A stretch of DNA of 64,000 nucleotides from Candidatus Cloacimonadota bacterium. GTDB lineage: Bacteria; Cloacimonadota; Cloacimonadia; Cloacimonadales; JAIOQZ01. The position numbers were made by a program, and so were the translations under genes. How positions within the stretch are numbered: the stretch's first letter is position 1; each line of letters starts with the position of its first letter. The stretch lies in contig JAIOQZ010000039.1 of assembly GCA_021108395.1 (NCBI GenBank), forward strand, positions 62,001 through 126,000, read 5' to 3'. This document shows, one piece after another, positions 43,273 to 63,262 of this stretch. Under the pieces are notes generated by a model. The model was not told where the DNA came from, did no database searches, and was given only the letters and a program-made list of their open reading frames with translations.

Positions 43273-43722
43273 ATGAGCCAGATACGCATCGTCAACCGCA
43301 AAGCCCGCCATGATTACATGTTCCTGGACGAGCTGGAAGCCGGCATTGTATTGAAAGGCACCGAGATCAAATCGATTCGGGCCGGCAATGTCAGCTTCAA
43401 GGACAGCCATGCCCGCATGGTGGACGGCGAGATGTGGCTCTATAGCCTGCATATCAGCCCCTATGAAATGGGCAACCAATTCAATCACGAGCCAGAGCGT
43501 CGTCGTAAGCTGTTGCTCAACCGCCGCGAGATGAGGCGGTTGCAGGCAAAGATGGACGAGCGTGGACTCACGCTCATCCCCCGTGCCATTTACATCAACA
43601 AGCGCGGACTGGCCAAAGTAAGCCTGGCGCTGGCTCGTGGCAAGCACAACTACGACAAGCGCGAAGCTTTGCAAAAACGTGACCAGGAACGCGACCTGCA
43701 ACGTCGGCTAAAAGACTACTAA
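43273..43722 (+). CDS. smpB: SsrA-binding protein SmpB
   Basis: A 149-residue tmRNA-binding protein for trans-translation ribosome rescue. The beta-barrel motifs VNRKARHDYMFLDELEAGIVLKGTEIKSIRAGNVSFKDSHARMVDGEMWLYSLHISPY and the basic C-terminal tail that becomes helical in the ribosome (KHNYDKREALQKRDQERDLQRRLKDY) are complete. GAGAGG lies before the ATG. No tmRNA gene was recognised in the window. Confidence 0.96.
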   Translation: MSQIRIVNRKARHDYMFLDELEAGIVLKGTEIKSIRAGNVSFKDSHARMVDGEMWLYSLHISPYEMGNQFNHEPERRRKLLLNRREMRRLQAKMDERGLTLIPRAIYINKRGLAKVSLALARGKHNYDKREALQKRDQERDLQRRLKDY

Positions 43723-44115: not shown

Positions 44116-44218
44116 TGTATCTCCTTCATTCAAGGTATCCAAGTTCTCTCCCATGAAAGCTGGAAGTCAAGTAAAAAACCAGTTGCATCTCACCGTGAAT
44201 ACCCTTTGTGAAGTGTGA

Positions 44219-44517
44219 AGTATCACTGTGAAGTATCACCCCTAATGGCAAGAAGTATCACTTTTCGTGGCAAATAGTATCACCAAGTTGGCAAATGAAG
44301 CGGATCCGGAGCGAAATACGGGGATTTTTCCTTGCCATGTTGGTGATACCGAAATGGACAGTTTTTGCCCTTATCCTTTTAACCAGTAGAAGATTGGCTA
44401 TGAGTATCACTATTTTGGCAAATCCTTGCCATTTTCGTGATACTGAAATGGACAGAAAGTGCTCGTTATTATCTGCTGTGTCGCTGGTTAACTATGAGTA
44501 TCACTATTTTGGCAAAT
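44219..44517. repeat. Array of AGTATCAC-N5/6-TGGCAA units, probable transposon-end remnant
   Basis: Eight units lie in 300 bases. AGTATCAC followed after 5-6 bases by TGGCA occurs on the plus strand at 44232, 44254, 44276, 44403 and 44497; the first (44219) lacks the second half. Inverted copies occur at 44332-44349 and 44426-44444, and each is followed by GAAATGGACA (44351-44360; 44445-44454), so that the ends read TGTCCATTTC on the minus strand. Also, 26 bases at 44398-44423 recur at 44492-44517. Multiple short transposase-binding repeats next to a TGTC terminus are typical of IS21-family elements; no transposase gene is left. An open frame on the plus strand here is not credible as a gene. 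Confidence 0.65.
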
Positions 44518-44588
44518 TTCCTCGATTCTGGCGAAAAAAACCTGCTTCAGGGTCGAAAGCAGGCTCCAGATTGTAGCTGATTTCAGGC

Positions 44589-44762
44589 TTATTTCGCACC
44601 CTTCCACACGTAGAGCACTCTCTCGAACGTGATGAGTTCTCCGATGATGCCATCGAGTGGAAGCTCTTCCACCTCCTCGATGATGTCAGTTGATTCGAGG
44701 ATAATATCACGATTCAATGCGATGCCGCTATGAAATGGCTCCGGGTGAAGTACTAAATCCAT
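44589..44762 (-). CDS. Possible small gene, 57 residues
   Basis: An open frame from ATG 44762 to TAA 44589 encodes a protein rich in acidic residues: LHPEPFHSGIALNRDIILES, TDIIEEVEELPLDGIIGELI, then TFERVLYVWKGAK. The composition is protein-like, but there is no Shine-Dalgarno and no recognised family. It could be a fragment of a larger, lost gene at the island edge. Confidence 0.3.
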   Translation of the reverse strand: MDLVLHPEPFHSGIALNRDIILESTDIIEEVEELPLDGIIGELITFERVLYVWKGAK

Positions 44763-44922: not shown

Positions 44923-47900
44923 GTGCCTGAAATCGTTGATGTTAATTGGAACGCATTTGCATGCAAATTCGATGGTCGCGAACACCAGCAGTTTGAACTA
45001 CTGAGCTATCTTCTGTTTTGCCATGAGCATGAAAAGGAGCATGGTCTCTTCCGTTACTTCAATCAGGCTGGCATCGAAACTGAGCCTGTGGAAGTGAATG
45101 ACAAATGCATCGGCTTTCAGGCTAAGTATTTGAATACCTCGATTAGCTCGAACAAGATAAAGATTAAGAACGGTCTTTCAAAAGCAAAAGAGAGAAATCC
45201 TCAACTCAATGTTATATACTACTACTTGAACAGAGAATTTTCTGAGAGCCGCAAAGCAGGGCAAAAGAGACCCCAATATCAAATCGTGATTGAAACACAT
45301 GCTAATAACCTGGGCATCGAGATTGTGTGGCGGGTTCGCAGTCACTTCGAAAAGCGATTGATGGAGGAGAAAAACCGCTACATCGCTCAATACTTCTTCC
45401 AGATTCAACCAAGTGCCATCGACTCGATTCTCCAATTCCGGAAACAGGGACAGTGTCTCCTCGAGCCCATACATACATCGATTGGTGCTGATAAATATGA
45501 TATCCACCTTGATCGGTCGAAGGTAATCAAGGAAATAGAAGAAGCGGTTCTCCAAGAGCAGGTTGTTCTTGTGAGTGGCGATGCCGGAGTTGGCAAGACA
45601 GCGTTAATAAAGGAGTATTTTGCCGAGCAGAGCGATGATGTACACGTATACATCGTGAAGACAAGTCGTTTGAGCGTCAATTGTGTGAACGAGGTGTTCG
45701 GTACGGACGACACGTTAAGATTGGATGACTTCATCGAAGTACATCAAACAGAGGCGCGCAAGGTGTTTGTGTTCGACTCAGCAGAAGCACTCTCCGATAT
45801 AGAGGACATCGATCCTTTTCGCGAGTTACTGTCAGCACTGATCCATAACGAATGGAGTGTAATCTTCACGGTTCGACCTCGGTACATCGAAGAACTCAAG
45901 ACCATCGTGTTAGATAGATTCGCCTGTAAAATGCATGAAATCCCGATTCAACGAATCCCAGTTCATGAACTGGAAAGACTCTCCGTTGACTACTCATTCC
46001 AGCTTCCAGAGAATCACAGACTTCTGGACGTAATCCGTACGCCCTATTACCTGAATGAGTACCTTTCTCAGACAAATAAGGATACCCAGCGTGTTGATCG
46101 TACGGTTTTTATAAATCGTATATGGGAAAACCGGATTATGAATACCAGCTTCCAGAAAGATGGAATTCACCGTAGCCGCTCAGAATGCTTCATGGCTATT
46201 GCCTTAGAAAAATGTAGAGATGGTAAATTTTACATCGAAGGTCGTCAATATAATCCAAAAGCCCTTCACAAGCTTGTAGAGGATGAAATACTGGAATACG
46301 ATACGTCAACAAAAAGCTATTTCATCACGCATGACATCTTTGAAGAAATAGCTCTGGAGAGACACATAAGCACGCAGTACAACCGCAATCGTGATATGCA
46401 TCATCTTCTCGGTGAAATCGGCAAAGCACTGCCGATGCGCAGAGCCTTCAGAGCTTGGCTGTTTGAGATGATGGAATCCGATTCAACCGACATGAAACAA
46501 GGTTTGTCCGAGTTATTGATAGACACCGAATTCTCAAAGTACTGGAAAGACGAGATTCTTTTATCGATCCTGACCTCCTCTAAGGCTGCCGATTACCTTT
46601 CATCGTTTCATCAAACCCTTGCCAACGAGAATTACACGAATTTGAAGTGGTTAATGGCTCTGCTCAGAACAGCCTGCAAGGAGTTCGATGTACCAGACAT
46701 CATGAAGGGCGTACAGCACACAGAGGATATTGCTTACTTGAAGTCTCTATTCACCAAACCCAAGGGTTCTGGCTGGGAGTACGTCATCCACTATCTCTTC
46801 GACAAGGTTACAGATGATAACATCCTTCGAGAAAGCCTGCCTTTGCTAGTGGACTGGACAAAGAAGAACGAGACTGGCTTGGCAACGAGTCAAGCCGGCC
46901 GTATCGTGTTGAAGCTGTACACGACTCATTTGGAGTCAAATCCATACTATGGAAGACAAAAGAGTGCTATCGAGAAAGCAATGGTTGATGTGATTCACTT
47001 CAGTTCCCATGAGATTGCTGATGATCTCGTGTCTTTCTACGATACACTTCTGCCACAAGACCATTCAAGGATTGACGCTCTTTCTCGCACAATCCTCACG
47101 TCTATGGAGGACAGCTTCAGGTTCATTCAAGCGCTCCCTGATCTCACGGTGAGGATAGCCAACGCTTTTTGGTGGGGAAATGAGGAATCGGACGACTACG
47201 AGCGAAGGCACTTCATACATGAAGCAGAAGTTTCGTTCGGGCTGTCCACTTACTGCCAACAGATGTACTTCCCTGCAAGTGCCTATCAGACACCGACATG
47301 GTTGCTACTTGTTATTCATCCCGAAATAGGGCTCAAATTCATCATCGACACAGTCAATCGAGCGGTGGAAGTCTATGCGGCCAGCGACAGGGGAGATCAT
47401 CTGGAGACAATCGAACTGGTGGTTGATGGGAAAACGGTAACTCAGCATATCGATGATCGCCTGTGGAAGATGTATCGCGGCCTCAGCAATGGACCGAGTG
47501 TTCTGGACTCGATGCACATGGCTCTGGAGAAGTGGTTATTGAATAATGCTAAGACCACCTCAGATGAGTTTCTCGATACGGTATGCAAGTTCCTGCTGCA
47601 GACATCGAAGTCCGCATCTATCACTGCTGTTGTCACCAGCGTCGTTCAGGCTTATCCTGAAAAGCTCTTTAAGATCGCCGCCATTTTGCTTCGATGCAAG
47701 ACGCTGTACCTATATGACATGCATCGTTTCATGTACGACATGCACAAGGCCAAGAATCTATATTCTATCGGCTTAGGCTTGAAATACGATAGCAAAGACA
47801 ATTACCGGAAAGAAAGAATCCGGACGTGTGACGACTCATTCAGAAGCAAGCGTCTGGAAACTCTGGCTCTGGATTACCTGTTGAATGTAATGGAAATAAG

Positions 47901-49638
47901 TTCGGAGGAATTCGACCAAAGACGGGAGACGATATGGAAAATTCTGGATCGCCACTACGCTGAACTGCCGGAGAAAGCCGGTCTGACCAAGGATGATGTG
48001 ACCTGGAAGATATTCTTGGCGCGAATGGACACCCGGAAGATGAACCTTGAACATGATCGTGTTGAAAATGGCAAAACCTACTACAAGCTTGTGCCAGAAA
48101 TCGATGATGAAGTCAAGGAGCAAGTGGATATAGCATCGCAAGTGCAGGCTGAGTTTGAGAAGAGCACAAGTATCATGATATGGGCGCAGGTTAGCTTTGA
48201 AAGAAACCAGAATAAGTACTCCGTCAACCAACGATTCAATGAGAATCCCCAGGAAGTCATAGGGATTGTAAAGGGCCTGATGAACGAGCTATCGACTAAC
48301 AGTGATTCTCAGTTCCAGCTCTTTACTAAAAACGTACCCGCGTATGCTTGCGCTGTCTTACTGAGGGACTACTGGGCCAAGATCGACGCAGATGATCGTG
48401 CTTATTGTGCCGATGTGCTACTGCAATATGCAAGCGTTCTTCTGAGCGATGAATACAATGAACAGGCGGGTGACTTTTCGCAGCCCACGGTATCATCGCT
48501 ACCCCTAATCATTCAGCGGTTCTCCATGAGAAAGAACGAGGCTAAAGCGCTTCTTCTAAAAATTATGCTGTTGAATTCCTTTCACTCCAAGATGTATCGA
48601 ACCTACTTTCGGGAGAACATGTGGAGCGCTTCCAATGAAGATGGCTGGTCGATTTTTCTGGGTTATCTCGCGCTGGCGCCAGGATATGACGAGTTTCGTC
48701 AATCCGCCCGAGATAAGAATGCTGAAAGGGGAGTGTATGGCGTGTTGAGGTCTGACCTCGACGGTTTTATAAAAGTAAATACAACGTTAGTTGAATCAGT
48801 AATGAATAAAAATGAGGATTCTAACAGGATTTCGCTTGTGGATTGTGGTCTCGAACACCTCGTCCCCGCACTCGAAATGCTACCTTCCGAACTGCCCCGG
48901 AAAGAGATGAGACAAGTGTTTGCTGCAATCACGAAGCAAATGGTAATAATTCTAAGTCTGAATCAGCGTGATCATGATTCAACGTTGGCTGCTGGCTTCA
49001 GAGAACACTTCACGAGGATATTGCTGCATTTTGAAAACGAGTTTATCGAAGAGTATGTTAAACTGATTGATGGTATCCTTGGTGCCAATGAACACACTGA
49101 GTCGATACTGAGATTCTTTATACTCCATACAGATCAACTCAGAAAGAGTGATGCTTTCTGGCGTATCTGGGATGCGTTGTACACCAAAATGATGGAGATC
49201 AACTCGTTGAGCGACAAACACTACTATCGCGATAGGGTGATGACAGAATATCTCATAGTATCTCAGATCTGGAAAGATAATACAAGAGAATGGCATACGC
49301 TCAGAGAGCAGGATTTGCCATTTTACGATAAGGTAGTCGATGAAATGGGTGGCAATCCCATTGTGCTTTATAGCATAGGGAGTGTGTTATTCAGGATCGG
49401 AAGCCGTTTTATGCTCCCAGGCATTACTTGGCTGAGCACCTTGATATCACAACACCGATACGATTCCCTCAAGCAGGATACAGTTTTCTTCATAGAGTCA
49501 TTCATGAGAAGATTCTGGATTAACTGTAGAAAGGAAGTCAAAAGGGACGAATCTACTCGAGAAAAAGCACAGACAGTACTGGATTTCCTATTCGAACAAG
49601 GCTCATCCATTGGGCATTTGTTGAGGGAGCAACTCTGA
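44923..49638 (+). CDS. Avs-like defence protein: N-terminal nuclease-like domain, STAND NTPase, helical-repeat sensor
   Basis: A 1,571-residue protein. Residues about 1-160 resemble a restriction-endonuclease fold: HQQFELLSYLLFCHEHEKEHGLFRYFNQAG then EVNDKCIGFQAKYL with QxK (Gln66, Lys68) typical of Mrr-like nucleases. Residues 217-226 hold the P-loop SGDAGVGKT, and 280-290 Walker B KVFVFDSAEAL; FTVRPRY matches a STAND/AP-ATPase sensor. From about 500 on, the protein is a long series of alpha-helical segments with no recognised family, as in Avs (antiviral STAND) sensors. The architecture and size recall Avs4 (about 1,590 residues, Mrr-like nuclease), but relation is not proven. GTG start with AGGAGG upstream. 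A+T content is higher than in the flanking core genes. Confidence 0.8.
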   Translation: MPEIVDVNWNAFACKFDGREHQQFELLSYLLFCHEHEKEHGLFRYFNQAGIETEPVEVNDKCIGFQAKYLNTSISSNKIKIKNGLSKAKERNPQLNVIYYYLNREFSESRKAGQKRPQYQIVIETHANNLGIEIVWRVRSHFEKRLMEEKNRYIAQYFFQIQPSAIDSILQFRKQGQCLLEPIHTSIGADKYDIHLDRSKVIKEIEEAVLQEQVVLVSGDAGVGKTALIKEYFAEQSDDVHVYIVKTSRLSVNCVNEVFGTDDTLRLDDFIEVHQTEARKVFVFDSAEALSDIEDIDPFRELLSALIHNEWSVIFTVRPRYIEELKTIVLDRFACKMHEIPIQRIPVHELERLSVDYSFQLPENHRLLDVIRTPYYLNEYLSQTNKDTQRVDRTVFINRIWENRIMNTSFQKDGIHRSRSECFMAIALEKCRDGKFYIEGRQYNPKALHKLVEDEILEYDTSTKSYFITHDIFEEIALERHISTQYNRNRDMHHLLGEIGKALPMRRAFRAWLFEMMESDSTDMKQGLSELLIDTEFSKYWKDEILLSILTSSKAADYLSSFHQTLANENYTNLKWLMALLRTACKEFDVPDIMKGVQHTEDIAYLKSLFTKPKGSGWEYVIHYLFDKVTDDNILRESLPLLVDWTKKNETGLATSQAGRIVLKLYTTHLESNPYYGRQKSAIEKAMVDVIHFSSHEIADDLVSFYDTLLPQDHSRIDALSRTILTSMEDSFRFIQALPDLTVRIANAFWWGNEESDDYERRHFIHEAEVSFGLSTYCQQMYFPASAYQTPTWLLLVIHPEIGLKFIIDTVNRAVEVYAASDRGDHLETIELVVDGKTVTQHIDDRLWKMYRGLSNGPSVLDSMHMALEKWLLNNAKTTSDEFLDTVCKFLLQTSKSASITAVVTSVVQAYPEKLFKIAAILLRCKTLYLYDMHRFMYDMHKAKNLYSIGLGLKYDSKDNYRKERIRTCDDSFRSKRLETLALDYLLNVMEISSEEFDQRRETIWKILDRHYAELPEKAGLTKDDVTWKIFLARMDTRKMNLEHDRVENGKTYYKLVPEIDDEVKEQVDIASQVQAEFEKSTSIMIWAQVSFERNQNKYSVNQRFNENPQEVIGIVKGLMNELSTNSDSQFQLFTKNVPAYACAVLLRDYWAKIDADDRAYCADVLLQYASVLLSDEYNEQAGDFSQPTVSSLPLIIQRFSMRKNEAKALLLKIMLLNSFHSKMYRTYFRENMWSASNEDGWSIFLGYLALAPGYDEFRQSARDKNAERGVYGVLRSDLDGFIKVNTTLVESVMNKNEDSNRISLVDCGLEHLVPALEMLPSELPRKEMRQVFAAITKQMVIILSLNQRDHDSTLAAGFREHFTRILLHFENEFIEEYVKLIDGILGANEHTESILRFFILHTDQLRKSDAFWRIWDALYTKMMEINSLSDKHYYRDRVMTEYLIVSQIWKDNTREWHTLREQDLPFYDKVVDEMGGNPIVLYSIGSVLFRIGSRFMLPGITWLSTLISQHRYDSLKQDTVFFIESFMRRFWINCRKEVKRDESTREKAQTVLDFLFEQGSSIGHLLREQL

Positions 49639-49695
49639 CTGATGTGATTGTCAGCCGCAGACCTTAGCAGGCACGTTAGACACGGTATTCCGTAG

Positions 49696-49760
49696 ACATC
49701 CATCATCGCTCCGAAAGGAGGATAGATGGACGTTGAAAGTATTTCTTCCCAGACGTCCAT
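49696..49760 (+). promoter_or_regulatory. Leader with two mutually exclusive hairpins over a Shine-Dalgarno
   Basis: The central block GATGGACGT (49725-49733) can pair either with ACATCCATC (49696-49704) upstream or with ACGTCCAT (49753-49760) downstream (perfect over 8 bases). The upstream pairing extends inward (ATCGCTCC / GGAGGATA) to a stem capped by a GAAA tetraloop and would bury the Shine-Dalgarno AAAGGAGG that precedes ATG 49726. The downstream pairing would leave it free but cover the ATG. Such competing structures are typical of translation-controlled leaders. Evidence is from complementarity only. Confidence 0.5.
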
Positions 49761-49833
49761 TTCTCGTGTTCAAACTATCGCAATTCGGACACCTTTTACT
49801 TTATACTCAAGATACGGGGATATCCGACTGTAA
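49726..49833 (+). CDS. Possible 35-codon leader peptide or small protein
   Basis: ATG 49726 follows AAAGGAGGATAG, the best Shine-Dalgarno in this part of the window. The frame runs 35 codons (MDVESISSQTSISRVQTIAI, then RTPFTLYSRYGDIRL) to TAA. It has no similarity that can be recognised. It ends 186 bases before the helicase gene; the stretch 49834-50019 holds nothing else that can be named. Confidence 0.35.
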   Translation: MDVESISSQTSISRVQTIAIRTPFTLYSRYGDIRL

Positions 49834-50019
49834 CTCTCGCTATCAATCAACTTTAAGGCTCCTCCCAGCCACAGTAAGGTTAACGCTCCCCGAATTGCAT
49901 TTTCTGCTTGACATGGAGTATGCATGATGCCGTAAGTAGTGTTAGATAATCAGTAAAGTGATTTTAAGTGAAACAAGATTGAAGCTTACACTCACCAATG
50001 TCTGTTGGAGAGAAACAAC

Positions 50020-53000
50020 ATGATACAATCGACAGTGACCGTGCATAATGAAAAAGCCGTTCGGCTAATTGACTATCTATTGAAACTTGCCTTATTGCGA
50101 TCAAAGTCGGTTAGAACCATTGACACATATGAAAAGACACTCTGGATTAAAGATATCCCTCTAGAGAACGAGTGCTTCACCCAGGCATGGGATCAAAAGG
50201 AAGATTATAATCCTGATATATGGATTGAGGTTCAGAATCGAAAAGAGCCTGAATTACCACGCATTCCTGAAATTTGCGCAGGTTGGATCGACGAGTCATC
50301 TCTACGAAACAAGAACGAACTATCTGATCTATTTCCAGAAATCACCAAACAGGTGGAGAATCCTGATTGGCGTGAGGGATCAGACGAACCGGAGTTTCTC
50401 TCGCTAATCATACAGCTTGAGGATCATCAAGAAGTTCAACAGACGTGGGAAAAATACTTGGAGAAACGCTGGTTACCATGGACAGAAGCGCACAATATTT
50501 GGGAAAGCATTCATCATGTTTACACTACGCTTTTTACAATCTATCAAGAACAACTTCGACTTGGCGAAGAATTCGAACTAGTACTTGGGCTGGGACTTCT
50601 TTCGTGGCAGACTCCAGGAGGTTATAGCGTTCGTCGTCATTTAATAGTAGCCAATGCTTCACTGAAATTCAACGCTCAGCAGGGCAAATTCACTGTTTGT
50701 GCAAGTCCAGATGGCGCGAACCTTCGTCCCGAACTAGATATGTTAGACATTCAGGAACAACCGTCTGGAGCAGTGACAGACGCGAAAAAGACATTGGCCA
50801 CATCCGCAGATGATCCGTGGGAAAATGACTGCGTCACTGTTGTACTTCAAGCCCTTGTGCATTCGATTAGCCCTGATGGCGAATATGAGTCTTCCTTGGA
50901 AGCGAAGAAACAGAGGGTATCTGAGAAACCGCTTGTCGAATACGCTCCAACCCTTATCCTCCGAAAACGATCCACCAAGGGTCTTACAGATACGTTGGAG
51001 CGAATAAAAGATAATATCGAAAACGGTGGGTTGATTCCAAGTGAGTTTGGGGGTTTGACTGAAACTCCCCCAACCAGCGGTGACAATGACAATGTTGATC
51101 CTGGCGACACAAACTGTGAGTTGGTAAGTGAATTGTATTTCCCAAAGCCTTCGAATGATGAACAACGGCGTATTGTAGAAAAAATCAGCACTTCAAGTGG
51201 CGTTCTTGTGCAAGGACATCCCGGCACTGGGAAATCTCATACCATTGCAAATCTTATCAGTCACCTGCTCGCTACCGGACAAAGGACTTTAATCACTGCT
51301 CAAACGCCGCGTGCCCTTCAAGTTCTCAAAGATCTTGTGCCAGAAGAATTGCGCCCGTTGTGTATAAATCTTCTTGGCAGTGGTCTAGAGGAAAAGCGAT
51401 CTTTAGAGTCAAGCATTGGTGGGATACTCCGCAAGAATGAGGAATGGAACGAAGAACAAGCAAGGCAAAAAAGAGATGAGCTTGAACTGAAGCTTCATGA
51501 TTTACGTCAGGAGAAAGTAAGTCTCATTCGAAGACTTCAGGACATCAGGGAATCTGAGACTCACGCACAATCGATTGCAGAGGGTAATTACAAGGGAACC
51601 GCTGCCCAAATCGCAAAGGCAGTTCATCAGAAGGAGAGCTCATACAAATGGTTCACAGACACACCTACTTTGAATAAAACCTGTCCAGTCTCAGAAAGCG
51701 ATTTGCGCCCTATTCTTGATGCTTTGCGGCATTTTGTGCCTGATAAACGGCATGAGTTGAGCCTGATTTGCCCAGACAGCTTGCAACCTGTAGATGGATT
51801 TGCCAGTCTTGTTAATGCCGAGCAAAAAGCAATCGAAGAAGAAGTTCGATCGGGGAAAGGAGCGGACGAGCAAATTGCCGAGTATTTAACAAGAGTTGAA
51901 AATGACACTATTGAGTCACTTCGTGATTCCCTGGAATTATTCCAAAGCAAGCTTCGAAGTCTTCCAATAGCAACACATCCCTGGGTTAGTAGGGCTCTTA
52001 GTGATGTTTTAAATCGCAATCCAGCATTGTGGAAGAAGCTTCATCAAGTAACGAGTCAAAGTATCAGTACAATTGAGTCTCTGGTCTCATTGGCAGATAA
52101 TACCAATATCACTTTACCAGATAACATCCAGCTCAAGAAAGTGATTGAAGATATCTCCAAGCTTATCGAGCACATGAAAAGCGGTGGTAAGCTGGGTTGG
52201 GGTCTGTTTCGGCCTAAGCTTGTAAAGGAAAGAATGTACATACTCAAGACTGTTCGAGTGAACGGAAGATTATGTGCCAGTCTAGAGCAGTTGTTTGTTC
52301 TTAGTGACGCGTTGAAGGTTCGTTTAGAGTGCGAAAGAGCCTGGGGATTCTGGGCTGGTCATTGTGAAAAGACTAAAGGACATTTTGTCATGCAATTTGC
52401 TGCACTCGAGGCACTGTACGAAGCACTTGGCAAGGTTCTGTCTATTGAAATTCTAATTGTCGAATGTCGCAAGAAAATACAGCAACATTCTGCCATAATC
52501 GAGCCGGTGTGGGCTGAGGAATCACAGGTTGAGCAGTTGATAGCATCTTGTACGCTGGCGATGGCTCGACAAGTCAAAGATAAGGCAGTAATGGAAATCA
52601 GCGGACTGGAAGTTCCTTTAGTACTTCTCATGGCAAAGAACTCTGTCCATCCGGTTGTGAGTGAATTGATCAATGCAATTCGCAATCGTAATATTGAAGC
52701 ATATGCACATGCCGTTGGAAGAAACCATGAAATGGTGCAAGAGCGTGAACGCCTTCGGAAGATAGATAGCAAAATTTCAGAAATAAAACAAGTTATGCCA
52801 AATATGATTGAAGATATAACTCAAACTTACAATGAGTCTTACTGGGAAAACCAAATTGCATCAATCAAGGAAGCTTGGCATTGGGCTCAAGCAAAACAGT
52901 GGATTGATGTGTACATACGCAAAGAAGACTCTCCAGCCCTTGCTCAACGCGTGAAGCAGATTGAGAGCGAAATAAGCTCCATCATTTCGAGGTTGGCTTC

Positions 53001-54846
53001 ATTGCTTGCTTGGTCATTCTGTTTCGCTCGCCTGCAGGATACACATCGCCAACACATGGAAGCTTGGCAGCAATCTATGAAGCGGATTGGTAAAGGAACA
53101 GGAAAACATGCGCCACACCATCGACGCGAGGCTCAGAAACACCTCAACCAGTGTCGTGAGGCAGTACCGGGGTGGGTTATGCCACTGCATCGAGTCTGGG
53201 ACACAATAGAGCCCTCACCGGAGATGTTTGATGTTATCATTGTTGATGAAGCATCTCAGTGTGGTGTAGAAGCACTTCCGCTCTTGTATCTGGGCAAGAA
53301 AGTATTGATCGTTGGTGACGACAAACAAATAAGTCCTGCTGCTGTGGGGATTCCTCGCAATGATGTGTATCGACTGATGAAGGATTTTTTGTTCGATTAC
53401 GATTATCAATCGACCTTCGACGTAGAGAGCAGCCTTTTTGAACATGGTAAGCGCCTGTATTCACGCCGACAGATTACATTGCGAGAACACTTCCGCTGTA
53501 TGCCGGAAATAATCCGCTTTAGCAACGATCTTTGTTATACCGATACACCGTTAATACCATTAAGGCAATTTGGCTCAGACCGTTTAACACCGCTGGAACG
53601 TGTATTTGTTGATAGTGGCTATCGTGAAGGGAAGGCTAATCGCGTTATCAATAGACCTGAATCTCAGGAAGTTGTGGCCAAGATTGTCGAATTATGTTGT
53701 GATGAACGATATGAAGCCAAGACAATGGGTGTTATTGTTCTGCAGGGAGATGCTCAAGCAAGTTTGATTGAACAAGAATTGCTGAATCAAATAGGAGCAG
53801 AAGAAATCGAGAAACGGCGTATCGTTTGTGGTAATCCGTATAGTTTTCAGGGTGATGAACGAGACGTAATTTTCTTGTCGATGGTCGCGGCACCGAATAC
53901 AAGAATAGGTGCTTTGACAAAACCAGAGGCTGAAAGACGATTCAATGTTGCAGCGAGTCGCGCTCGAGACCAGATGTGGCTATTTCATTCTGTGACAATC
54001 GATGATCTTAGCAAAGATTGCTTGCGACGCAAGTTACTCGAATTCTTCGAGAATTCTAAACCACTTGAGATTGCTGGAATTGATCTTGAGGAACTGGAGC
54101 GCAGAGCATATCAGGACAACCGAAGTACTATCAAACCACCCAAGCCATACGATAGTTGGTTCGAGCTCAATGTTGCCTTAGAACTGGCAAGAAAAGGATA
54201 TATTGTTATTCCACAGTATGAATTTGGAGGAAAATGGATTGATCTTGTTGTTCAGCACGGTTCACGGCAATTAGCGATTGAATGTGATGGTGATAATTGG
54301 CACGGTGCTGATCGTTATGAGGCAGATATGCAACGTCAGCGGCAACTTGAGCGTTGTGGATGGGAGTTTTTCCGAGTAAGAGAGTCGGCCTTCTACTCAA
54401 ATAAAGCAGAAGCATTGAAAGATCTCTGGTTACGGCTACAAGACCGAGGTATCTTCCCAGGTTATGCAAATAAGCCTGAGAGCGACAATGATGATAACCG
54501 TAGTGCAAGTAATAACAGAGGTGGTGAATCTGAAAGGAATGTGAAGTCAAGCTCTCCATTTACTGAGGCAGCAGTCACTTCGACACCACAACCAAGTCAT
54601 CCATTAACTGAAATTCCCACTCAACAAATCCGGAATGCAATCTTGGCTGCATTATCCAAATGTCCAAACAACTCATGTACAGAGGACTCGATAACGAAGA
54701 GGGTTCTGAAAGAGCTTGATATCATTACTCGAGGTCAACCTCGCAAGGCATTCGAGCAAAGAATCAAGAAGAGTGTTAACGAACTAGTGGTTGAAGACTT
54801 GATCGAGAAATATCGAGCAAAAAACAAGCGACTCAGACTGATATAG
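50020..54846 (+). CDS. SF1 helicase (Upf1/Dna2-like) fused to a Vsr/MTES-1575-type nuclease
   Basis: A protein of about 1,608 residues with probable defence function. N-terminal 370 residues are of no known type. Then comes an SF1 helicase: Walker A VLVQGHPGTGKSHTI (near residue 400), a long coiled insertion (about 460-1000), Walker B DVIIVDEASQCG (Asp1076-Glu1077), GDDKQISP, and late motifs SFQGDERDVI and RRFNVAASRARDQMW. A Vsr/DUF559-like nuclease (about 1,375-1,475) has SWFELNVALELARKGY (Glu1382), WIDLVV (Asp1408) and IECDGDNWHG (Glu1421, Asp1423). A disordered linker and a winged-helix-like end follow. ATG 50020 has GGAG nine bases upstream; a TTG at 50005 is less likely. Its neighbour is the STAND protein, 381 bases upstream. 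Confidence 0.85.
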   Translation: MIQSTVTVHNEKAVRLIDYLLKLALLRSKSVRTIDTYEKTLWIKDIPLENECFTQAWDQKEDYNPDIWIEVQNRKEPELPRIPEICAGWIDESSLRNKNELSDLFPEITKQVENPDWREGSDEPEFLSLIIQLEDHQEVQQTWEKYLEKRWLPWTEAHNIWESIHHVYTTLFTIYQEQLRLGEEFELVLGLGLLSWQTPGGYSVRRHLIVANASLKFNAQQGKFTVCASPDGANLRPELDMLDIQEQPSGAVTDAKKTLATSADDPWENDCVTVVLQALVHSISPDGEYESSLEAKKQRVSEKPLVEYAPTLILRKRSTKGLTDTLERIKDNIENGGLIPSEFGGLTETPPTSGDNDNVDPGDTNCELVSELYFPKPSNDEQRRIVEKISTSSGVLVQGHPGTGKSHTIANLISHLLATGQRTLITAQTPRALQVLKDLVPEELRPLCINLLGSGLEEKRSLESSIGGILRKNEEWNEEQARQKRDELELKLHDLRQEKVSLIRRLQDIRESETHAQSIAEGNYKGTAAQIAKAVHQKESSYKWFTDTPTLNKTCPVSESDLRPILDALRHFVPDKRHELSLICPDSLQPVDGFASLVNAEQKAIEEEVRSGKGADEQIAEYLTRVENDTIESLRDSLELFQSKLRSLPIATHPWVSRALSDVLNRNPALWKKLHQVTSQSISTIESLVSLADNTNITLPDNIQLKKVIEDISKLIEHMKSGGKLGWGLFRPKLVKERMYILKTVRVNGRLCASLEQLFVLSDALKVRLECERAWGFWAGHCEKTKGHFVMQFAALEALYEALGKVLSIEILIVECRKKIQQHSAIIEPVWAEESQVEQLIASCTLAMARQVKDKAVMEISGLEVPLVLLMAKNSVHPVVSELINAIRNRNIEAYAHAVGRNHEMVQERERLRKIDSKISEIKQVMPNMIEDITQTYNESYWENQIASIKEAWHWAQAKQWIDVYIRKEDSPALAQRVKQIESEISSIISRLASLLAWSFCFARLQDTHRQHMEAWQQSMKRIGKGTGKHAPHHRREAQKHLNQCREAVPGWVMPLHRVWDTIEPSPEMFDVIIVDEASQCGVEALPLLYLGKKVLIVGDDKQISPAAVGIPRNDVYRLMKDFLFDYDYQSTFDVESSLFEHGKRLYSRRQITLREHFRCMPEIIRFSNDLCYTDTPLIPLRQFGSDRLTPLERVFVDSGYREGKANRVINRPESQEVVAKIVELCCDERYEAKTMGVIVLQGDAQASLIEQELLNQIGAEEIEKRRIVCGNPYSFQGDERDVIFLSMVAAPNTRIGALTKPEAERRFNVAASRARDQMWLFHSVTIDDLSKDCLRRKLLEFFENSKPLEIAGIDLEELERRAYQDNRSTIKPPKPYDSWFELNVALELARKGYIVIPQYEFGGKWIDLVVQHGSRQLAIECDGDNWHGADRYEADMQRQRQLERCGWEFFRVRESAFYSNKAEALKDLWLRLQDRGIFPGYANKPESDNDDNRSASNNRGGESERNVKSSSPFTEAAVTSTPQPSHPLTEIPTQQIRNAILAALSKCPNNSCTEDSITKRVLKELDIITRGQPRKAFEQRIKKSVNELVVEDLIEKYRAKNKRLRLI

Positions 54847-55066: not shown

Positions 55067-58000
55067 CTACTTCAGAAGCAGCATCTTATGGATAATCGAT
55101 TTACCACCCACCTGGAGACGATAGAAGTACACACCCGAGGCGCATGGCATATTCTGAGTGTCTCTACCACTCCAGATAACCTCATGAGGGCCTGCATTCC
55201 GGGAGTCATTTACAAGGCGAGTCACAAGCTGACCCCTGATATTGTAAACGCTCAGTCTGACATGCTCTTCGGTGGGGATGCTGTATCGTATCGTCGTGGT
55301 CGGGTTGAAGGGATTGGGGAAGTTCTGTGTTAGGGTTATATGGTCATGAATGGGTGGAACCTGAGCGTCGCAATCGGTGACAAGCTGGAATATCAAAGCT
55401 TCACGTTTGTCGAAGTACTCTGTGTATGAGTTGGGGCGATATTCGGGATAACGCCCTGTGTATCCACTGTATCTGGTTGAACCCTCCATCAACAGATATG
55501 TATAGCCGATGTCGATTGTGGCATAAATGGAATCGACTTCGCTGGGAGGATTCTCGATGATCGACTCGAACCACTCAATTGCCGCGGGGTAATCGCCAAT
55601 CTTGATGTTGCACACATTAGCAAGGTAGTCCGCTAAAGCTTCAACTTCGTTATCAAAGTGAAGATTGGGCTCATTGAGATAGTATTGCTGCAACTCAGTA
55701 TAATCCGATTGAGTCACAGTGCAGATGGTTAGCAGCAGTTGGGCAGCTCTGGCAGCTTCATTGGAACCAGGATAATCTTCGATTACTTGCTCAAGTTGAG
55801 TTTCTGCAAGAAGGAAATTAGTGAGATCCATGTTGTACTCGGCAGCGATCAGCAATTCCAACGCAGGATTGTAGCCCGTATTCACGCTATCGCCAGGTTC
55901 CCAAACTGGCGTGTGAGAAAGGTATTCATACGGGTACAGATGAGTCTCGGCATCGAAGTTCTCACTCCAATAGTTGTTTCTGACCGTGTATGTTTCATGT
56001 CCAGCATGATGTACGCACCGGAAGTAGTGATCTTCCTCATGTAAATCATCGAAAATCAAGTTCCTTTCAAACGTTAATGGAATGCTGTCTTCATCGAAAA
56101 CAACTTCAACATTGTAGTTGTTGTGTATTGACTGGTATGGATAGTATTGTGAGCCTTGGACATCAATCACTGATTTACGCAGGGCCGCAAGACCAATGTA
56201 ATTGTTGTGAATGACGTTGCGCTCGCTGATGTCCGCAGTCGTGTGATAGAGCTCTATACCGTAACCGTATTGGTTGTTATAGATGAGGTTATCGGTTATC
56301 TCGTGTGTATTCCCGAAGCCAGATTCATTGATCCACAATGCAGTCATGTAATTCTGCATAGTGTTGTTGTTGATATCGAAGTTTGGGTATGAACTTATCG
56401 ATATCAGATTGGTGTAGTAGCTGAAGAAGAACTCGCAATGTTCTATCGTGACGATATCAGTTGAAATGGGTTCACAATTCATGTATGCATTGATGTGAGT
56501 AGTGTCAAACTCGCAGTAGCTGACTGTAAGGTCAGCATTGACGTGCTCGATGTAGGAGTCCGTGAAAACGCAATCTTCAATAACAATAGCTGAATTTGTC
56601 GACATGATTCTGGTGTTAGTGAAGGATGCATCATCAATCGTGATTTCTTCATCTGTGTCGAAATAGAGCCCCGCTGAAGACAGTGTATCGCTGCCAGTAA
56701 AATGGACATCGTTTTCGATAATCAGGACCGCATCATCAAACTGGATTTTCCTATTGTTCAGGAAAATTACAGATGCGTCATCATCAATCGTGAGAGTGAC
56801 ATCAGGCATGACAACGTAATGTGTTTCAACATGAACAGAACCTGTCCAAGTTGTATCCTGACTGATATACTGTGTATCGTCAAGTCCACATGCTTGAATT
56901 CGCACTTCTATATCAGAATACACAGATGAATCAAGAATGATGATGATTGGGTCATCAAATATCCCATCATCCTGGGGGATGAAATCGATCTGGATAATGG
57001 CCTGCTCAAATGCATCAAGCCACAAAGGGAAATCACTTCTGGTCAGGGTTGTTTCCTCCCTGGAAACATCAAGTATCTCTATAGAATTCTCAAATTCGGG
57101 ATTTGCATGATCATTGACTGCTCGTGCTGAGTAATCAGGTACTCTCGAACGAATTCTTGTAAGGTCGAGCCCTTCACCGCCTCCCCTTGAAACAGGAGAC
57201 ATAATGCTGCACTGGAAGTGCTCAGACGGAAGTTCAAGACCTTCGATGTATACCTGAGGAGAGGTTCCGCGATTTCTGATACTGAACGTAAGTGACTGGA
57301 TATCTCCAATGTATGTGTCCTCAAACTCCAAGTAAGTAGGATGTACTTCAATGCCAGGAGGATCGGGATATTCATAACAGCCGACATCACGCTTAAATCC
57401 TGAGAATTGATTTGGGAATGCGTCTTCATGAAGTGAGTAATCGAAGTAGTATAGATAGTGCGGTGTTGGAGCGCCATTATCAATGCAAAATGAATAGAAA
57501 TTCAAATGATAATCAGCATTATCTGGGTCGGCAAATTCAGGAATTTCATCAATAAGTGCATTGTGCATACCAATAAATAATGGATTATCTTGAACTTCAA
57601 TAACCATCTCCTGAATATTGCAGTAACCCATGTGAATCTCTTGTTCATTCGGAGTGATTTGCGAAGGATTTGTACCGGCACGTGTATTGTACCACAGGAT
57701 TGTATTCACCGTAGCGTTTCGCAAAACTTCGGCGTTTGGATCGAAATAAATTCCACCGCCACTGATGGCTGCATCGTTATTGCAGATTGTCGAGTTTATA
57801 CAGATAATGTCCCCATCATACTGATAAATCGCCCCGCCATACTGACTTTCGTTTGCATACATCAAGTTATTCTGGAGTAGTACTGAATCTTTTGAAAAAA
57901 GAACACCTCCAAAGCCCGTGTTGACAGCTTCATTATCGTGGAACACGCAATCTCTGACTACCAATGTGTCATTAGCGCTATTGTACAATACGCCACCGTT

Positions 58001-61000
58001 AGTTGCCTCATTGTCATAGAATTCGGAGTTGTAAATGCGTACAGATCCGCCATCTGTATGAATACACCCCCCATTCTGCCCTTGGTTTGAGAAAAAGACG
58101 CAATCAGTTACAATTACGTTACATGAATCTTGTGTCGCGATAACGCTTCCATTAGTTCCAACAGTATTTGACAAAGCAGCTCGAGTAATATTCAGGATAC
58201 CATAATCAATCACATGGAATCCATTCCAGTCATTTACGCCATCGAATGTGCTCAGAATCACTCGATCATCATGTGGGCCTGCAAGTGTGAAAACACCTTC
58301 AACTTGGACATATACATCCTCGTCGAATAGCATGCAGGAAACGAGGGAGTCGACTGATACATGAACACTGTCAGGGATGATAAGATTAGAGGTTACGTGA
58401 ACAGTATCAGCAAACAACACCAGATCCTTTTCGAGAGTACCACCAATTGTCAGCATTCCAATATGTTGCTTTTCTCTTGCACCAATATCATAGAAATGTT
58501 CAATTGGAGGATAACCGATTATGAGTTCATCCAGAACAGGCAATAACGAAGACGCCCAATCCTCTGGAGTTCCAGCGTTAATACATTCTGAATACATCGA
58601 CAGGTCATAATTTTCACCCTCAAACTGAGGGTCGGCGTCAATCACCGAGCTGAAAAAACCCAAGTAACTTGCGGTACGGGTTCCACTTGTGGATTGATAA
58701 TTTGGTCTTGAATTGCTGGATCGAGAGGAATCAGGATTCTCAACATGAATACCATTAATCCCACCCATGATATCACAATAGAAGAATCCAGTATCATCAA
58801 AGTCTGAACCAGAATTCAAATTCTCATAGTCATAAAAGAACGCTTGATTACCATAATCTGCAGAATTTGAATAGAGAATGGAATTTACCACATAGGGAAG
58901 TGCGGTTGAGCCATTGCAGTACAGAGCTCCACCTAGTTCAGCATCGTTGGATAGCAAATCACAATTTAATATTTGGGGGGCACTCAGACTATCAATATAT
59001 ATCGCCCCACCTTGTTCGGCGGAATTCCCGTCAATAATACTCCCTATCAACTGAAAATCGGATTCCTTTGCATAGATTGCCCCACCCATGGTGGCTTGAC
59101 AATCCTTGAATGTGCAGTTTTGGAACACCGGAGACGAATTATTCAGTTGAAGCGCGCCACCTTGATACAGGCTGTCAGGATTTGTGAATCTGCAATTAGT
59201 GAAAGTTGTCTCAAGATGATTGTTGAGCACTACTTGAACCCCGTGGGTCGTTCGACTGCGCGGGGGAGTAGTTGAGTTGAATTGACAGTATGTAAAATAG
59301 GAGTATAATTCATTATCTCGTTGATTGGAAGCATGCCGATCAAGGTTGTGGTCGCAGTTATTACTGCGCAGAAATGGAGTCTCGCCAGAAATAATCAATG
59401 ATGAGCCTGTCGTAACCAGTTCGTCAGTCAGAAATTGGATTGGTTCATCATCTGTACCCAGTGCTGTGATAATGCCTTCAACATATACATCACAGGTGTC
59501 GTCCATGATGACGGTTACATCAGGCAAGATTGTCAGGTTAATCTCCGGAAGCACATGAACGTCACCAACTACTCTCACGGTGTCGGCAGACCAGAATGTA
59601 TCAATCTGAATGTCACCAGATACTTGAACCGTGCCAGCAGTTTGTGGAAACTCATACGAACCAATGTCGATAACTGACTCATCGATTCGTGGATTACCTG
59701 CGATATCATACAATGGCATTGTAACACCTTGTATTGGAAGCAACCCGGCATTCACGCAAGGTGAGTTTCTTTCAATGAAGTAACCTAAGTTGTAATGATA
59801 CACAAATCCCGGGTCAGTCTCAACTATATCCGAATAGGTTCCACTGAAGGGGTCACCTTCGAAAGATGCTTGCCCATCAGGAATCGCGCAGTTCCAGAAA
59901 TCAGGTGCAGATGATGATTCCAGATAAACCGTACATAAGGTTTGACTCTCTGGTTCAGTATACAAAATTGTGTTGTAGAAATCTGGTGACGAGGCTTCAA
60001 GATGAATGGTGCTTTCAGAGCTACTGTCAAGTCCATGCCGGTAGGTCTCATTCACAATGAGCGGATTACTGTTGTCACAATACAGCGCAGAGCCCTCAGT
60101 GGCGCAATTATTCCAGTAGTGATTCCCAATCAGTGTCGGCGAGCTGTCCTCCAAATGGATCGCTCCGCCCGCGGTAGCTTGATTGCCGCGGAAAACACAG
60201 TTGGTAATCTCTATGTCGGCATCTTGAAGAGAGATTGCACCACCATAACCTGAAGAACAGTTTATGAATGTGCAGTTCTCGAAAGAGACATTGTCATTGC
60301 CGATAATCTCGATAGCGCCATATACTGGCGTGCGTTCATCATCACGAGAGCCTAACGATTCGAACTTGGTAAAACGTAAAGTGCTCACATTAGTACCAAT
60401 AAATTTGAGACGCCCACTCTCTATATAACCACCATGCATTCTGCGAAATGTGATTGGGGTTGATACAGTTCCATTGGTGGTTAAGCGGCCTTCAACATTG
60501 AAATCGTAATCCCCTTGAAACATGATAACGGTCCCTGCCTGCATCGTAACAACAGCACCATTAGCAATTCTAACATCATAGGGGATGATGTAATTACCTG
60601 ACCATGTCTCGTTTGAGGTGATGACACTGTCTGGTATGGTAGAGCCGTTCATAACCGTGAACCGAAGAGTATCAACTGCGATGTTGCCTTCGATATCCTC
60701 AGCTTGAACAGTAATGCGGTGAGGACCATTGGCAAACATTTCTGTACGGAGTAGGCTATTGCCAGTTCTTCTATTGGTAACTACATACTCGAACACGTGT
60801 CGATCTAAAGTAAGATCATTCCAGTGGCTGTTGTAGGAAAAAAGGGCTTCCGCAGCACCATCAGAAAATTTCGTGTCAAATTGCCAATGGGCTCTGTAAC
60901 CAAGTTCGTTAACGAGAACAACTGGGAAATTCCCTAATCGCTCAAGCTTGTAGCCAATTCTGTAGACGCCTTTTGCGCCATCGTTTCCCCAATAACCTTG

Positions 61001-63262
61001 GGGTACGCCCATTTGGTCAGATGCATCAGCAATCACATCTATTCCATCCGTAGTGACATCATCCATATCCACAACGGTGTTTTGTGTTTCGGAACTTGCC
61101 AGAGGCAGAATTGTAGGTGATGCGTAATTGTCGCGATTAGCATGATCCTCAATCAGATAGAAACTGTGAATTAATGGTGGTTCACCATCAATTGGTTTTC
61201 TACCATGCAACCCCATGCCGTCTTGCCGTAGCGCGTTTTCTTTACCTCCAGCAATCTCAGTGATGTAATCATTGAAGTGAAGGTGTCCCCATCCATGTGC
61301 TGGATGGTTGGATTTTACGACAAAAGAGACAGGGAAGCCTGAATTGACTTTTCGATGCTGAAAGATAGACCTGTGTGGATTAGGAGAGATATCCTGACTG
61401 TGGTAATAACAAAAAGTTGCTTCTGAGTAATCGACCGGTAGGTCATCCTCAGGATTGCTTGGCGCAGCATGTTCATTGGTTCCTTCGAGTGTTGTTGTTT
61501 TAGTGTATGAATCTCGCAATAAGCCAGAAACATCATAATACCACAACTTACCAGCACTGATTGTGAAGACTAATACTTCATCAGTATTGTTCATGTTACT
61601 TAAAAGGTCAATCCCATCGTGAAAACGCAAATCACTCGTTGCAATCAATGCGGATGTACTTCTCCATGGTCGCATCTCATCCAATGTAGCATTGACGATA
61701 ATGTCCTGATTATTCCACAAATCGAGATCGGCTGGGTTGTTGTAAGTGGGAACATTGGCTACAAACGGAAAGCCATAGTAGTCTTCCTTCTCATCCTCAA
61801 GAAAGTAAATTTCTATTGGCTCGGTTTCATCGGTGTATTGATTTCCATCAGACATATACCGAATATGCAAACTCACAGTCCAGTTGCTCGATTCATAAAC
61901 CGGACTGCGAATGTAATCCTGTCCATAACTGTAAATCTGTCGGAATTTATGTGCGCTCAATGTAACATCAACATCGCGGCCGGGAGCAATGATGGGAATA
62001 TTTCTCCAGTGCGTACTGTCTTCCACCCCGGGGGAGCAGGAATAGTGATCGCTGTATTCAAGAGGCACCCATTGAAAAGTAACAGGCTCAAACAATTTCC
62101 TTTTGTAGACTTCAAAGCGATATTGAACATTTCTTGCCGTGAACTGGCTATCGTTTTTAAGATTATATGTAATGGGGACATAAGTATTCGCCGGCAAGTA
62201 CACTACAATTGAATCGCCATGTGCGTTAAGGCCGTTTTGAAAGGCGGTTGCTTCATTAGACCATGCAGGACCGCTGAGGTCGAACTCCAGATTCTTGTTA
62301 TTCAGAACGTCACCTATATTCCACCTGATTGGGTATGTGACGGAATTGTTTTCGACATCCTCGTGATAAAACGGGAACAGATGGTCTGAGTGTACATGTC
62401 TGGGATCATCAAAAAGTGGGGGTATCCATTTGGGCGTTAGTTGCATACAAAAAGTACCATTCAAATGCGAGAGATCAACTGAGTCTGGAATAGAGAATGA
62501 TCGTATATTTATAACAGATGTTGTTGTGAGCGGTCCGATATCATTTCTGCTGGTAGAGTCACTCACAACAGCGTGTGTAATGGCGGGATCATGTTGATAT
62601 GTCCATCTGATACCAACAAAAGGGATGTTTATATCCCCTGAGTTCCTTAATACTACCTTAACTATCTCTGGCTGGCAGGTGAGTTCAGTTTCATCTATTA
62701 AAAATTCACCAGGCTCAAATCCAAGGCTGTCTATTTCTATGTCATACCACCGAGACAATGTGGAAGGTACTAAATTAAGGTCTAGTTGGGTGCTGATCAA
62801 ACCTGGACATTCAAGTGTAATTGAATAGTCAAGGTTGTCACTGGCGGATGAATAAATATTCCAATCTGTTGTCCGATACTTCGCGATGTAGAGAAAACCT
62901 CTTGGACCCCAGGTGGAAGCCATTGCGGGAAGCCTATACTCAACGGTTCCCCAGCCACCCTCATTGTAAACAGCTTTGTGGTCACAATATGACATTCGAT
63001 ATGGATCACTCCAACTGCCATATGCAATAAAAAAGTAAATTCCTTGATGAACAGTATCAGTTGAATGATCGATACTAAATTTCACCGAGTCACTCAGATC
63101 AACTGTATCATAAAACCAGTAGTCATCAGGATCCGAAAATACAGAATCTGGTGTCACAAGCCAGTCATCCCAGAAGATGCCCCATTCGTCTTCCCGTTGC
63201 GTCTCTCCGAACAAGCTTGATACTGCGATGATAGTTGCTATTATCAACAAACACTTTTTCAT
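55067..63262 (-). CDS. Giant secreted beta-helix protein with T9SS-type sorting domain
   Basis: A 2,731-residue exported protein: signal peptide (KKCLLIIATIIAVSSLFG), a 900-residue N-terminal part with beta-rich segments, then two or more stretches of right-handed parallel beta-helix. Typical turns read FENCTFINCSSGYGGAISL, ITNCVFRGNQATAGGAIHLE, FQNCTFKDCQATMGGAIYA and VFHDNEAVNTGFGGVLFS; NxxF/CxF and GGAIY recur. A PapD/HYDIN-like domain (IEVHPTYLEFEDTYIGDIQSLTFSIRNRGTS) and a TPR-like helical stretch (AARAAQLLLTICT...AAIEWFESIIENPPS) come near the end. The last 80 residues are the sorting domain (NFPNPFNPTTTIRYS, YNIRGQLVTRLV, GVYFYRLQVGG, KMLLLK). Probably a surface adhesin or a carbohydrate-interacting protein. 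Confidence 0.85.
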   Translation of the reverse strand: MKKCLLIIATIIAVSSLFGETQREDEWGIFWDDWLVTPDSVFSDPDDYWFYDTVDLSDSVKFSIDHSTDTVHQGIYFFIAYGSWSDPYRMSYCDHKAVYNEGGWGTVEYRLPAMASTWGPRGFLYIAKYRTTDWNIYSSASDNLDYSITLECPGLISTQLDLNLVPSTLSRWYDIEIDSLGFEPGEFLIDETELTCQPEIVKVVLRNSGDINIPFVGIRWTYQHDPAITHAVVSDSTSRNDIGPLTTTSVINIRSFSIPDSVDLSHLNGTFCMQLTPKWIPPLFDDPRHVHSDHLFPFYHEDVENNSVTYPIRWNIGDVLNNKNLEFDLSGPAWSNEATAFQNGLNAHGDSIVVYLPANTYVPITYNLKNDSQFTARNVQYRFEVYKRKLFEPVTFQWVPLEYSDHYSCSPGVEDSTHWRNIPIIAPGRDVDVTLSAHKFRQIYSYGQDYIRSPVYESSNWTVSLHIRYMSDGNQYTDETEPIEIYFLEDEKEDYYGFPFVANVPTYNNPADLDLWNNQDIIVNATLDEMRPWRSTSALIATSDLRFHDGIDLLSNMNNTDEVLVFTISAGKLWYYDVSGLLRDSYTKTTTLEGTNEHAAPSNPEDDLPVDYSEATFCYYHSQDISPNPHRSIFQHRKVNSGFPVSFVVKSNHPAHGWGHLHFNDYITEIAGGKENALRQDGMGLHGRKPIDGEPPLIHSFYLIEDHANRDNYASPTILPLASSETQNTVVDMDDVTTDGIDVIADASDQMGVPQGYWGNDGAKGVYRIGYKLERLGNFPVVLVNELGYRAHWQFDTKFSDGAAEALFSYNSHWNDLTLDRHVFEYVVTNRRTGNSLLRTEMFANGPHRITVQAEDIEGNIAVDTLRFTVMNGSTIPDSVITSNETWSGNYIIPYDVRIANGAVVTMQAGTVIMFQGDYDFNVEGRLTTNGTVSTPITFRRMHGGYIESGRLKFIGTNVSTLRFTKFESLGSRDDERTPVYGAIEIIGNDNVSFENCTFINCSSGYGGAISLQDADIEITNCVFRGNQATAGGAIHLEDSSPTLIGNHYWNNCATEGSALYCDNSNPLIVNETYRHGLDSSSESTIHLEASSPDFYNTILYTEPESQTLCTVYLESSSAPDFWNCAIPDGQASFEGDPFSGTYSDIVETDPGFVYHYNLGYFIERNSPCVNAGLLPIQGVTMPLYDIAGNPRIDESVIDIGSYEFPQTAGTVQVSGDIQIDTFWSADTVRVVGDVHVLPEINLTILPDVTVIMDDTCDVYVEGIITALGTDDEPIQFLTDELVTTGSSLIISGETPFLRSNNCDHNLDRHASNQRDNELYSYFTYCQFNSTTPPRSRTTHGVQVVLNNHLETTFTNCRFTNPDSLYQGGALQLNNSSPVFQNCTFKDCQATMGGAIYAKESDFQLIGSIIDGNSAEQGGAIYIDSLSAPQILNCDLLSNDAELGGALYCNGSTALPYVVNSILYSNSADYGNQAFFYDYENLNSGSDFDDTGFFYCDIMGGINGIHVENPDSSRSSNSRPNYQSTSGTRTASYLGFFSSVIDADPQFEGENYDLSMYSECINAGTPEDWASSLLPVLDELIIGYPPIEHFYDIGAREKQHIGMLTIGGTLEKDLVLFADTVHVTSNLIIPDSVHVSVDSLVSCMLFDEDVYVQVEGVFTLAGPHDDRVILSTFDGVNDWNGFHVIDYGILNITRAALSNTVGTNGSVIATQDSCNVIVTDCVFFSNQGQNGGCIHTDGGSVRIYNSEFYDNEATNGGVLYNSANDTLVVRDCVFHDNEAVNTGFGGVLFSKDSVLLQNNLMYANESQYGGAIYQYDGDIICINSTICNNDAAISGGGIYFDPNAEVLRNATVNTILWYNTRAGTNPSQITPNEQEIHMGYCNIQEMVIEVQDNPLFIGMHNALIDEIPEFADPDNADYHLNFYSFCIDNGAPTPHYLYYFDYSLHEDAFPNQFSGFKRDVGCYEYPDPPGIEVHPTYLEFEDTYIGDIQSLTFSIRNRGTSPQVYIEGLELPSEHFQCSIMSPVSRGGGEGLDLTRIRSRVPDYSARAVNDHANPEFENSIEILDVSREETTLTRSDFPLWLDAFEQAIIQIDFIPQDDGIFDDPIIIILDSSVYSDIEVRIQACGLDDTQYISQDTTWTGSVHVETHYVVMPDVTLTIDDDASVIFLNNRKIQFDDAVLIIENDVHFTGSDTLSSAGLYFDTDEEITIDDASFTNTRIMSTNSAIVIEDCVFTDSYIEHVNADLTVSYCEFDTTHINAYMNCEPISTDIVTIEHCEFFFSYYTNLISISSYPNFDINNNTMQNYMTALWINESGFGNTHEITDNLIYNNQYGYGIELYHTTADISERNVIHNNYIGLAALRKSVIDVQGSQYYPYQSIHNNYNVEVVFDEDSIPLTFERNLIFDDLHEEDHYFRCVHHAGHETYTVRNNYWSENFDAETHLYPYEYLSHTPVWEPGDSVNTGYNPALELLIAAEYNMDLTNFLLAETQLEQVIEDYPGSNEAARAAQLLLTICTVTQSDYTELQQYYLNEPNLHFDNEVEALADYLANVCNIKIGDYPAAIEWFESIIENPPSEVDSIYATIDIGYTYLLMEGSTRYSGYTGRYPEYRPNSYTEYFDKREALIFQLVTDCDAQVPPIHDHITLTQNFPNPFNPTTTIRYSIPTEEHVRLSVYNIRGQLVTRLVNDSRNAGPHEVIWSGRDTQNMPCASGVYFYRLQVGGKSIIHKMLLLK

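Follow-up and report, generated by a model that had tools for sequence, protein, structure and literature searches.

An avs4 gene and a neighbouring helicase-nuclease gene with scattered relatives in a Candidatus Cloacimonadota genome

The analyzed stretch of DNA (the window, 64,000 nucleotides) corresponds to positions 62001-126000 of a 137,370-base contig in a draft genome of 2.89 Mb. An earlier sequence-only reading described two giant adjacent genes in the same direction, each encoding a nuclease-like domain and a P-loop motor, within a low-G+C stretch with transposon-end remnants. Our analysis agreed with this description: both reading frames are open (1,571 and about 1,608 amino acids), the relevant motifs or domains were located in both products, and the G+C content drops at 44 kb, with multi-copy repeats at the left edge. 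Both are also credible anti-phage genes, in line with that reading: gene 1 is Avs4 itself, and gene 2 combines a helicase with a nuclease of the Vsr type. The features are as follows.

44207-44600, no strand: multi-copy transposon-end remnant with direct repeats D1 and D3 (GTATCAC...TGGCAAAT)
44923-49638, plus strand: gene 1, avs4, 1,571 amino acids, GTG start; N-terminal PD-(D/E)xK-type nuclease, STAND NTPase and long C-terminal sensor region
49639-50019, no strand: intergenic gap of 381 bp between genes 1 and 2
50020-54846, plus strand: gene 2, helicase-nuclease, about 1,608 amino acids (reading frame and 17-member family alignment)
50020-51129, plus strand: N-terminal region of gene 2, conserved in the family, with no named domain
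51130-54009, plus strand: SF1B helicase of gene 2 (PF13086, PF13087)
about 51442-53124, plus strand: helical insertion of gene 2, about 560 residues between helicase motifs I and II (predicted model)
54160-54438, plus strand: MTES_1575 (Vsr-type) nuclease of gene 2 (PF18741, E 1.3e-27)
54592-54843, plus strand: C-terminal module of gene 2, winged-helix-like by sequence pattern, common to most relatives and replaced in others

The sequence AGGAGG lies four bases ahead of the GTG start of gene 1 (44923). The gene 1 product matched the NCBIfam Avs4 model with 1506.7 bits (cut-off 1500) over model positions 1-1578 of 1579 and the PADLOC Avs4 model with 1433.5 bits, and its residues 5-1570 align to the solved Avs4 chain (PDB 8dgf). 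The nuclease motif E...QxK (E52, Q66 and K68) and the P-loop NTPase motif GDAGVGKT are present; E52, Q66, K68, GxxGxGKT and DSAE are retained relative to the Avs4 encoded on an E. coli plasmid, and E...QxK, Walker A and DSAE also in the comparison with a partial Avs4 relative from the same phylum (40% identity). Judged from its sequence, gene 1 is an ordinary full-length Avs4, resembling the known AVAST type 4 protein from end to end, although its identity to the E. coli plasmid member is only 33%. Strong Avs4 matches elsewhere in the phylum, for which 125 genomes were scanned, were confined to two other genomes, and both are partial. Avs1-Avs4 reportedly cleave phage and host DNA once they have recognised a phage protein such as terminase or portal (PMC12931631). 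By analogy with what is reported for the family, the gene 1 protein would recognise a conserved phage packaging protein, assemble through its STAND NTPase and then cut DNA.

The longest reading frame of gene 2 begins at TTG 50005 (1,613 amino acids), with ATG 50020, which is preceded by GGAGAG, as the likelier start. Pfam searches detected AAA_11 and AAA_12 for the helicase, and MTES_1575 for the nuclease. The N-terminal 370 residues gave no Pfam match and no significant fold match in the PDB, the model having middling confidence there (pLDDT 73); for the whole protein, pTM was 0.43, so that the predicted domain arrangement is unsure. Both sequence and fold searches identified Sen1, senataxin, Upf1, Ighmbp2 and Dna2 as solved relatives of the helicase. 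The helicase and nuclease motifs are retained in the 17 aligned members, among which D1413 and E1426-C-D1428 of the nuclease are invariant. The C-terminal module looks like a winged helix, with no Pfam hit. The published description of MTES_1575 classes it as a Vsr-type nuclease and places it in a protein with additional HEPN, winged-helix and SF1 helicase domains (PMC3710099).

Comparison with named defence families placed gene 2 near several of them. The PADLOC candidate PDC-S37 has the same helicase-nuclease order, and its model matched gene 2 residues 386-1588 with 197.6 bits (model positions 297-1441 of 1550); all 17 members tested matched. However, this score is set against a model of 1,550 positions, and the N-terminal region of gene 2 is unmatched. 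ProA (NCBIfam NF058533) is similar in the C-terminal half of the helicase and in the nuclease, but gene 2 falls below its whole-protein cut-off (202.8 against 1500 bits). The same regions are shared with Hhe, a DUF4011 helicase-nuclease with a nuclease of the MTES_1575 type, but here too the cut-off is not reached (119.6 against 2000 bits), and no Pfam match to DUF4011, the N-terminal domain of Hhe, was obtained for gene 2 at E values up to 1. The similarity to MkoA and MkoC of Mokosh (101 and 112 bits) is limited to stretches of the SF1 helicase, and the nuclease of gene 2 is MTES_1575. PDC-S37 was mentioned in no paper that we found, and the literature search returned nothing useful on ProA. 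These profile scores indicate that gene 2 is related to PDC-S37, ProA and Hhe, yet lies far under the cut-offs of the latter two, and that current defence libraries cover its family poorly, matching it only weakly.

Relatives of gene 2 were found at 23 loci (one genome per species was scanned) by exact short peptides, a method that favours close relatives, and most are 55-60% identical to gene 2 over long stretches. The hosts belong to Nitrospirota, Acidobacteriota, Planctomycetota, Myxococcota, Pseudomonadota, Synergistota, Hydrogenedentota, Thermodesulfobacteriota and other groups, and include an archaeon. Viral contigs added 10 relatives, 8 of them strong, and annotated phage records yielded only distant helicase matches. 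The catalytic motifs are invariant among the relatives, whereas the C-terminal tail differs. It is winged-helix-like in most of them; L007 (PF01272) and, judged by sequence, L013, L015, L022 and L092 carry a GreA/GreB-like C-terminal domain instead, L021 carries an Lsr2 DNA-binding domain (PF23359), and the tail is small or missing in L010 and L016. GreA/GreB is a transcription factor that binds RNA polymerase. The relative in L007 is about 100% identical to that in L092 at the start of the gene, 86-97% identical to that in L091 through most of it, and 92-100% identical to that in L092 again at its end, where the L091 tail differs. It looks like a recombinant in which the core has been swapped between fixed ends, or, since L007 is a 5.8-kb contig from a draft genome, the mosaic may be an assembly chimera.

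The neighbours of the relatives are varied. In L011 (3-17666), the relative is part of a BREX operon that also encodes BrxC, PglX and BrxA; it is placed between BrxHI and PglZ and shares four bases with the PglZ gene. That in L093 is near SspC and a ParB-N/methylase protein; a type I methyltransferase is encoded just downstream in L096, and a type I restriction enzyme upstream in L095. In L091 and L092 (about 5.2-15.2 kb), the relative is on the opposite strand within the head cluster of a Mu-like, contractile-tailed phage, which encodes MuF, portal and sheath proteins as well as a divergently oriented D12 adenine methyltransferase, and parts of these surroundings are retained in L007, L015, L002 and L005. 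A small HTH_17 gene is directly upstream of the relative in L007, L091 and L092, with a four-base overlap, and a similar sequence is found upstream in L002, L005, L009 and L024, making seven loci altogether; in the window, no HTH_17 gene was found upstream of gene 2. No neighbour was found to be kept across the genome loci in general. Ten large neighbours in seven loci matched none of the defence models, indicating that the defence association of the relatives is not universal.

We tentatively suggest that gene 2 represents a hitherto undescribed family of single-protein defences, in which a fixed helicase-nuclease core would be aimed by exchangeable C-terminal modules (winged-helix-like, GreA/GreB-like or Lsr2-like), and which would be carried by, and traded between, chromosomes, BREX operons and Mu-like phages; this proposal has a somewhat less than even chance of being correct. 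From its domains, the gene 2 protein would most likely load on invader DNA (phage or plasmid) exposed as ends, forks or gaps, both substrate and trigger being guesses; the SF1B motor would then translocate and the Vsr-type nuclease would cut. When or where the protein is recruited would depend on its N-terminal region, which is conserved, and on its C-terminal module, which varies. If so, the interchangeable tails, one of them GreA/GreB-like, could reveal how such nucleases get aimed at foreign DNA.

The proximity of several relatives to PglX, to D12, N6/N4 or type I methyltransferases, or to SspC could also mean that gene 2 provides the nuclease of modification-dependent systems, cutting unmarked DNA but sparing DNA that an adjacent methyltransferase or phosphorothioate system has marked. 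However, the type of modification gene changes every time, many loci are without a recognised one, and no such gene was noticed around gene 2, whether within the window or in the following 11 kb, and we consider this explanation unlikely. It is also rather improbable that gene 2 encodes a non-defence helicase-nuclease of repair or linked to transcription. Its nearest solved relatives are indeed cellular helicases and some members have the GreA/GreB-like tail, but the spread is patchy (strong matches in 10 of 392 sampled genomes of Planctomycetota, the phylum of L008, with that of L008 itself included), relatives are placed in BREX and phage modules, and the nearest named families are anti-phage proteins.

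The sequence-only reading had left open whether the two genes form a combined system or are just neighbours in an island; its refuting condition, that the two never co-occur elsewhere, speaks here against a joint system. Avs4 was sought by tblastn in the collected loci, which included those with gene-2 relatives from other genomes (23 loci), from 10 viral contigs and from nine further sampled genomes. Outside the window's own genome, matches were obtained at L050 and L051 only, neither of which carries a gene-2 relative, and there were 0 cases of Avs4 beside a relative among these loci, of which about 15 from genomes and most of those from viral contigs had 5-10 kb of flank on at least one side, with short flanks in several. 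A search of the 23 whole genomes that hold relatives gave no Avs4, in a run whose controls were silent and with a model that did match in the scan of the phylum; nor did a scan of the viral contigs with patterns drawn from this one Avs4 protein. No leader common to the two genes was found: local similarity between the regions upstream of genes 1 and 2 was no better than that of shuffled sequences, the gap between the genes contains neither an HTH_17 gene nor sequence similar to the region upstream of gene 1. Promoter and terminator scans gave no higher yield than shuffles. The G+C content at third codon positions (0.524 in gene 1 and 0.393 in gene 2) suggests that the two genes had separate histories.

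Genes 1 and 2 are thus probably separate defence genes that are neighbours by chance, gene 2 being a self-contained helicase-nuclease. A joint system, with Avs4 as the phage sensor and the helicase-nuclease completing the destruction of the DNA, is suggested by adjacent, co-directional, intact genes of defence type, but was rejected as very improbable in view of the absence of a second linked case among the collected loci, the failure to find Avs4 in the genomes with relatives, the 381-bp gap, the lack of a common leader and the unlike third-codon composition. Since the pair is known from one genome only, a recent functional pairing may still be conceivable. We regard the supposed two-gene giant system as a false lead that has been removed; the better lead, and the interest of the locus, is gene 2 with its relatives and their defence and phage associations, rather than the pair.

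At 44 kb, the G+C content drops from about 0.57 to about 0.44; it then remains low for about 11 kb beyond the window, as far as a cluster at the end of the contig that contains a Mu-type transposase. Other contigs of the same genome also hold stretches of 0.44-0.50 G+C, and composition alone is therefore weak evidence for an island. Eight further sites in the genome carry copies of parts of the remnant at 44207-44600, the copy at one of these sites being just 22 bases long, and no transposase of its own was found nearby. The possibility that the island is cargo of the Mu-type transposon at the right end of the contig was rejected: in the genome, the GTTACTATCGG... end repeats sit beside that transposase alone and are absent from the window, and the remnant represents another type of end, whose right-hand copy is in the same orientation and not inverted.

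To the left, smpB is found at 43273-43722 of the window, 1.2 kb from avs4, and no tmRNA gene was found within the window. Directly after gene 2, on the minus strand (55067-63262), is a gene for a 2,731-amino-acid protein that contains repeats and ends in a type IX secretion sorting tail. Past the window come a gene for a 388-amino-acid protein, a three-gene cluster and the Mu-type transposase with a TniB-like ATPase; at the contig end (L077, 11135-15370), these two and an HTH protein lie beside the GTTACTATCGG repeats, which are unique in the genome. The three-gene cluster (L077, 5058-10885; C3:127058-132885), to the right of the window, encodes a 1,146-amino-acid HD-domain protein with an N-terminus that appears SIR2-like by eye, a 406-amino-acid unknown protein and a 398-amino-acid protein with an M78/CapP-like peptidase domain, and is possibly a further defence operon.
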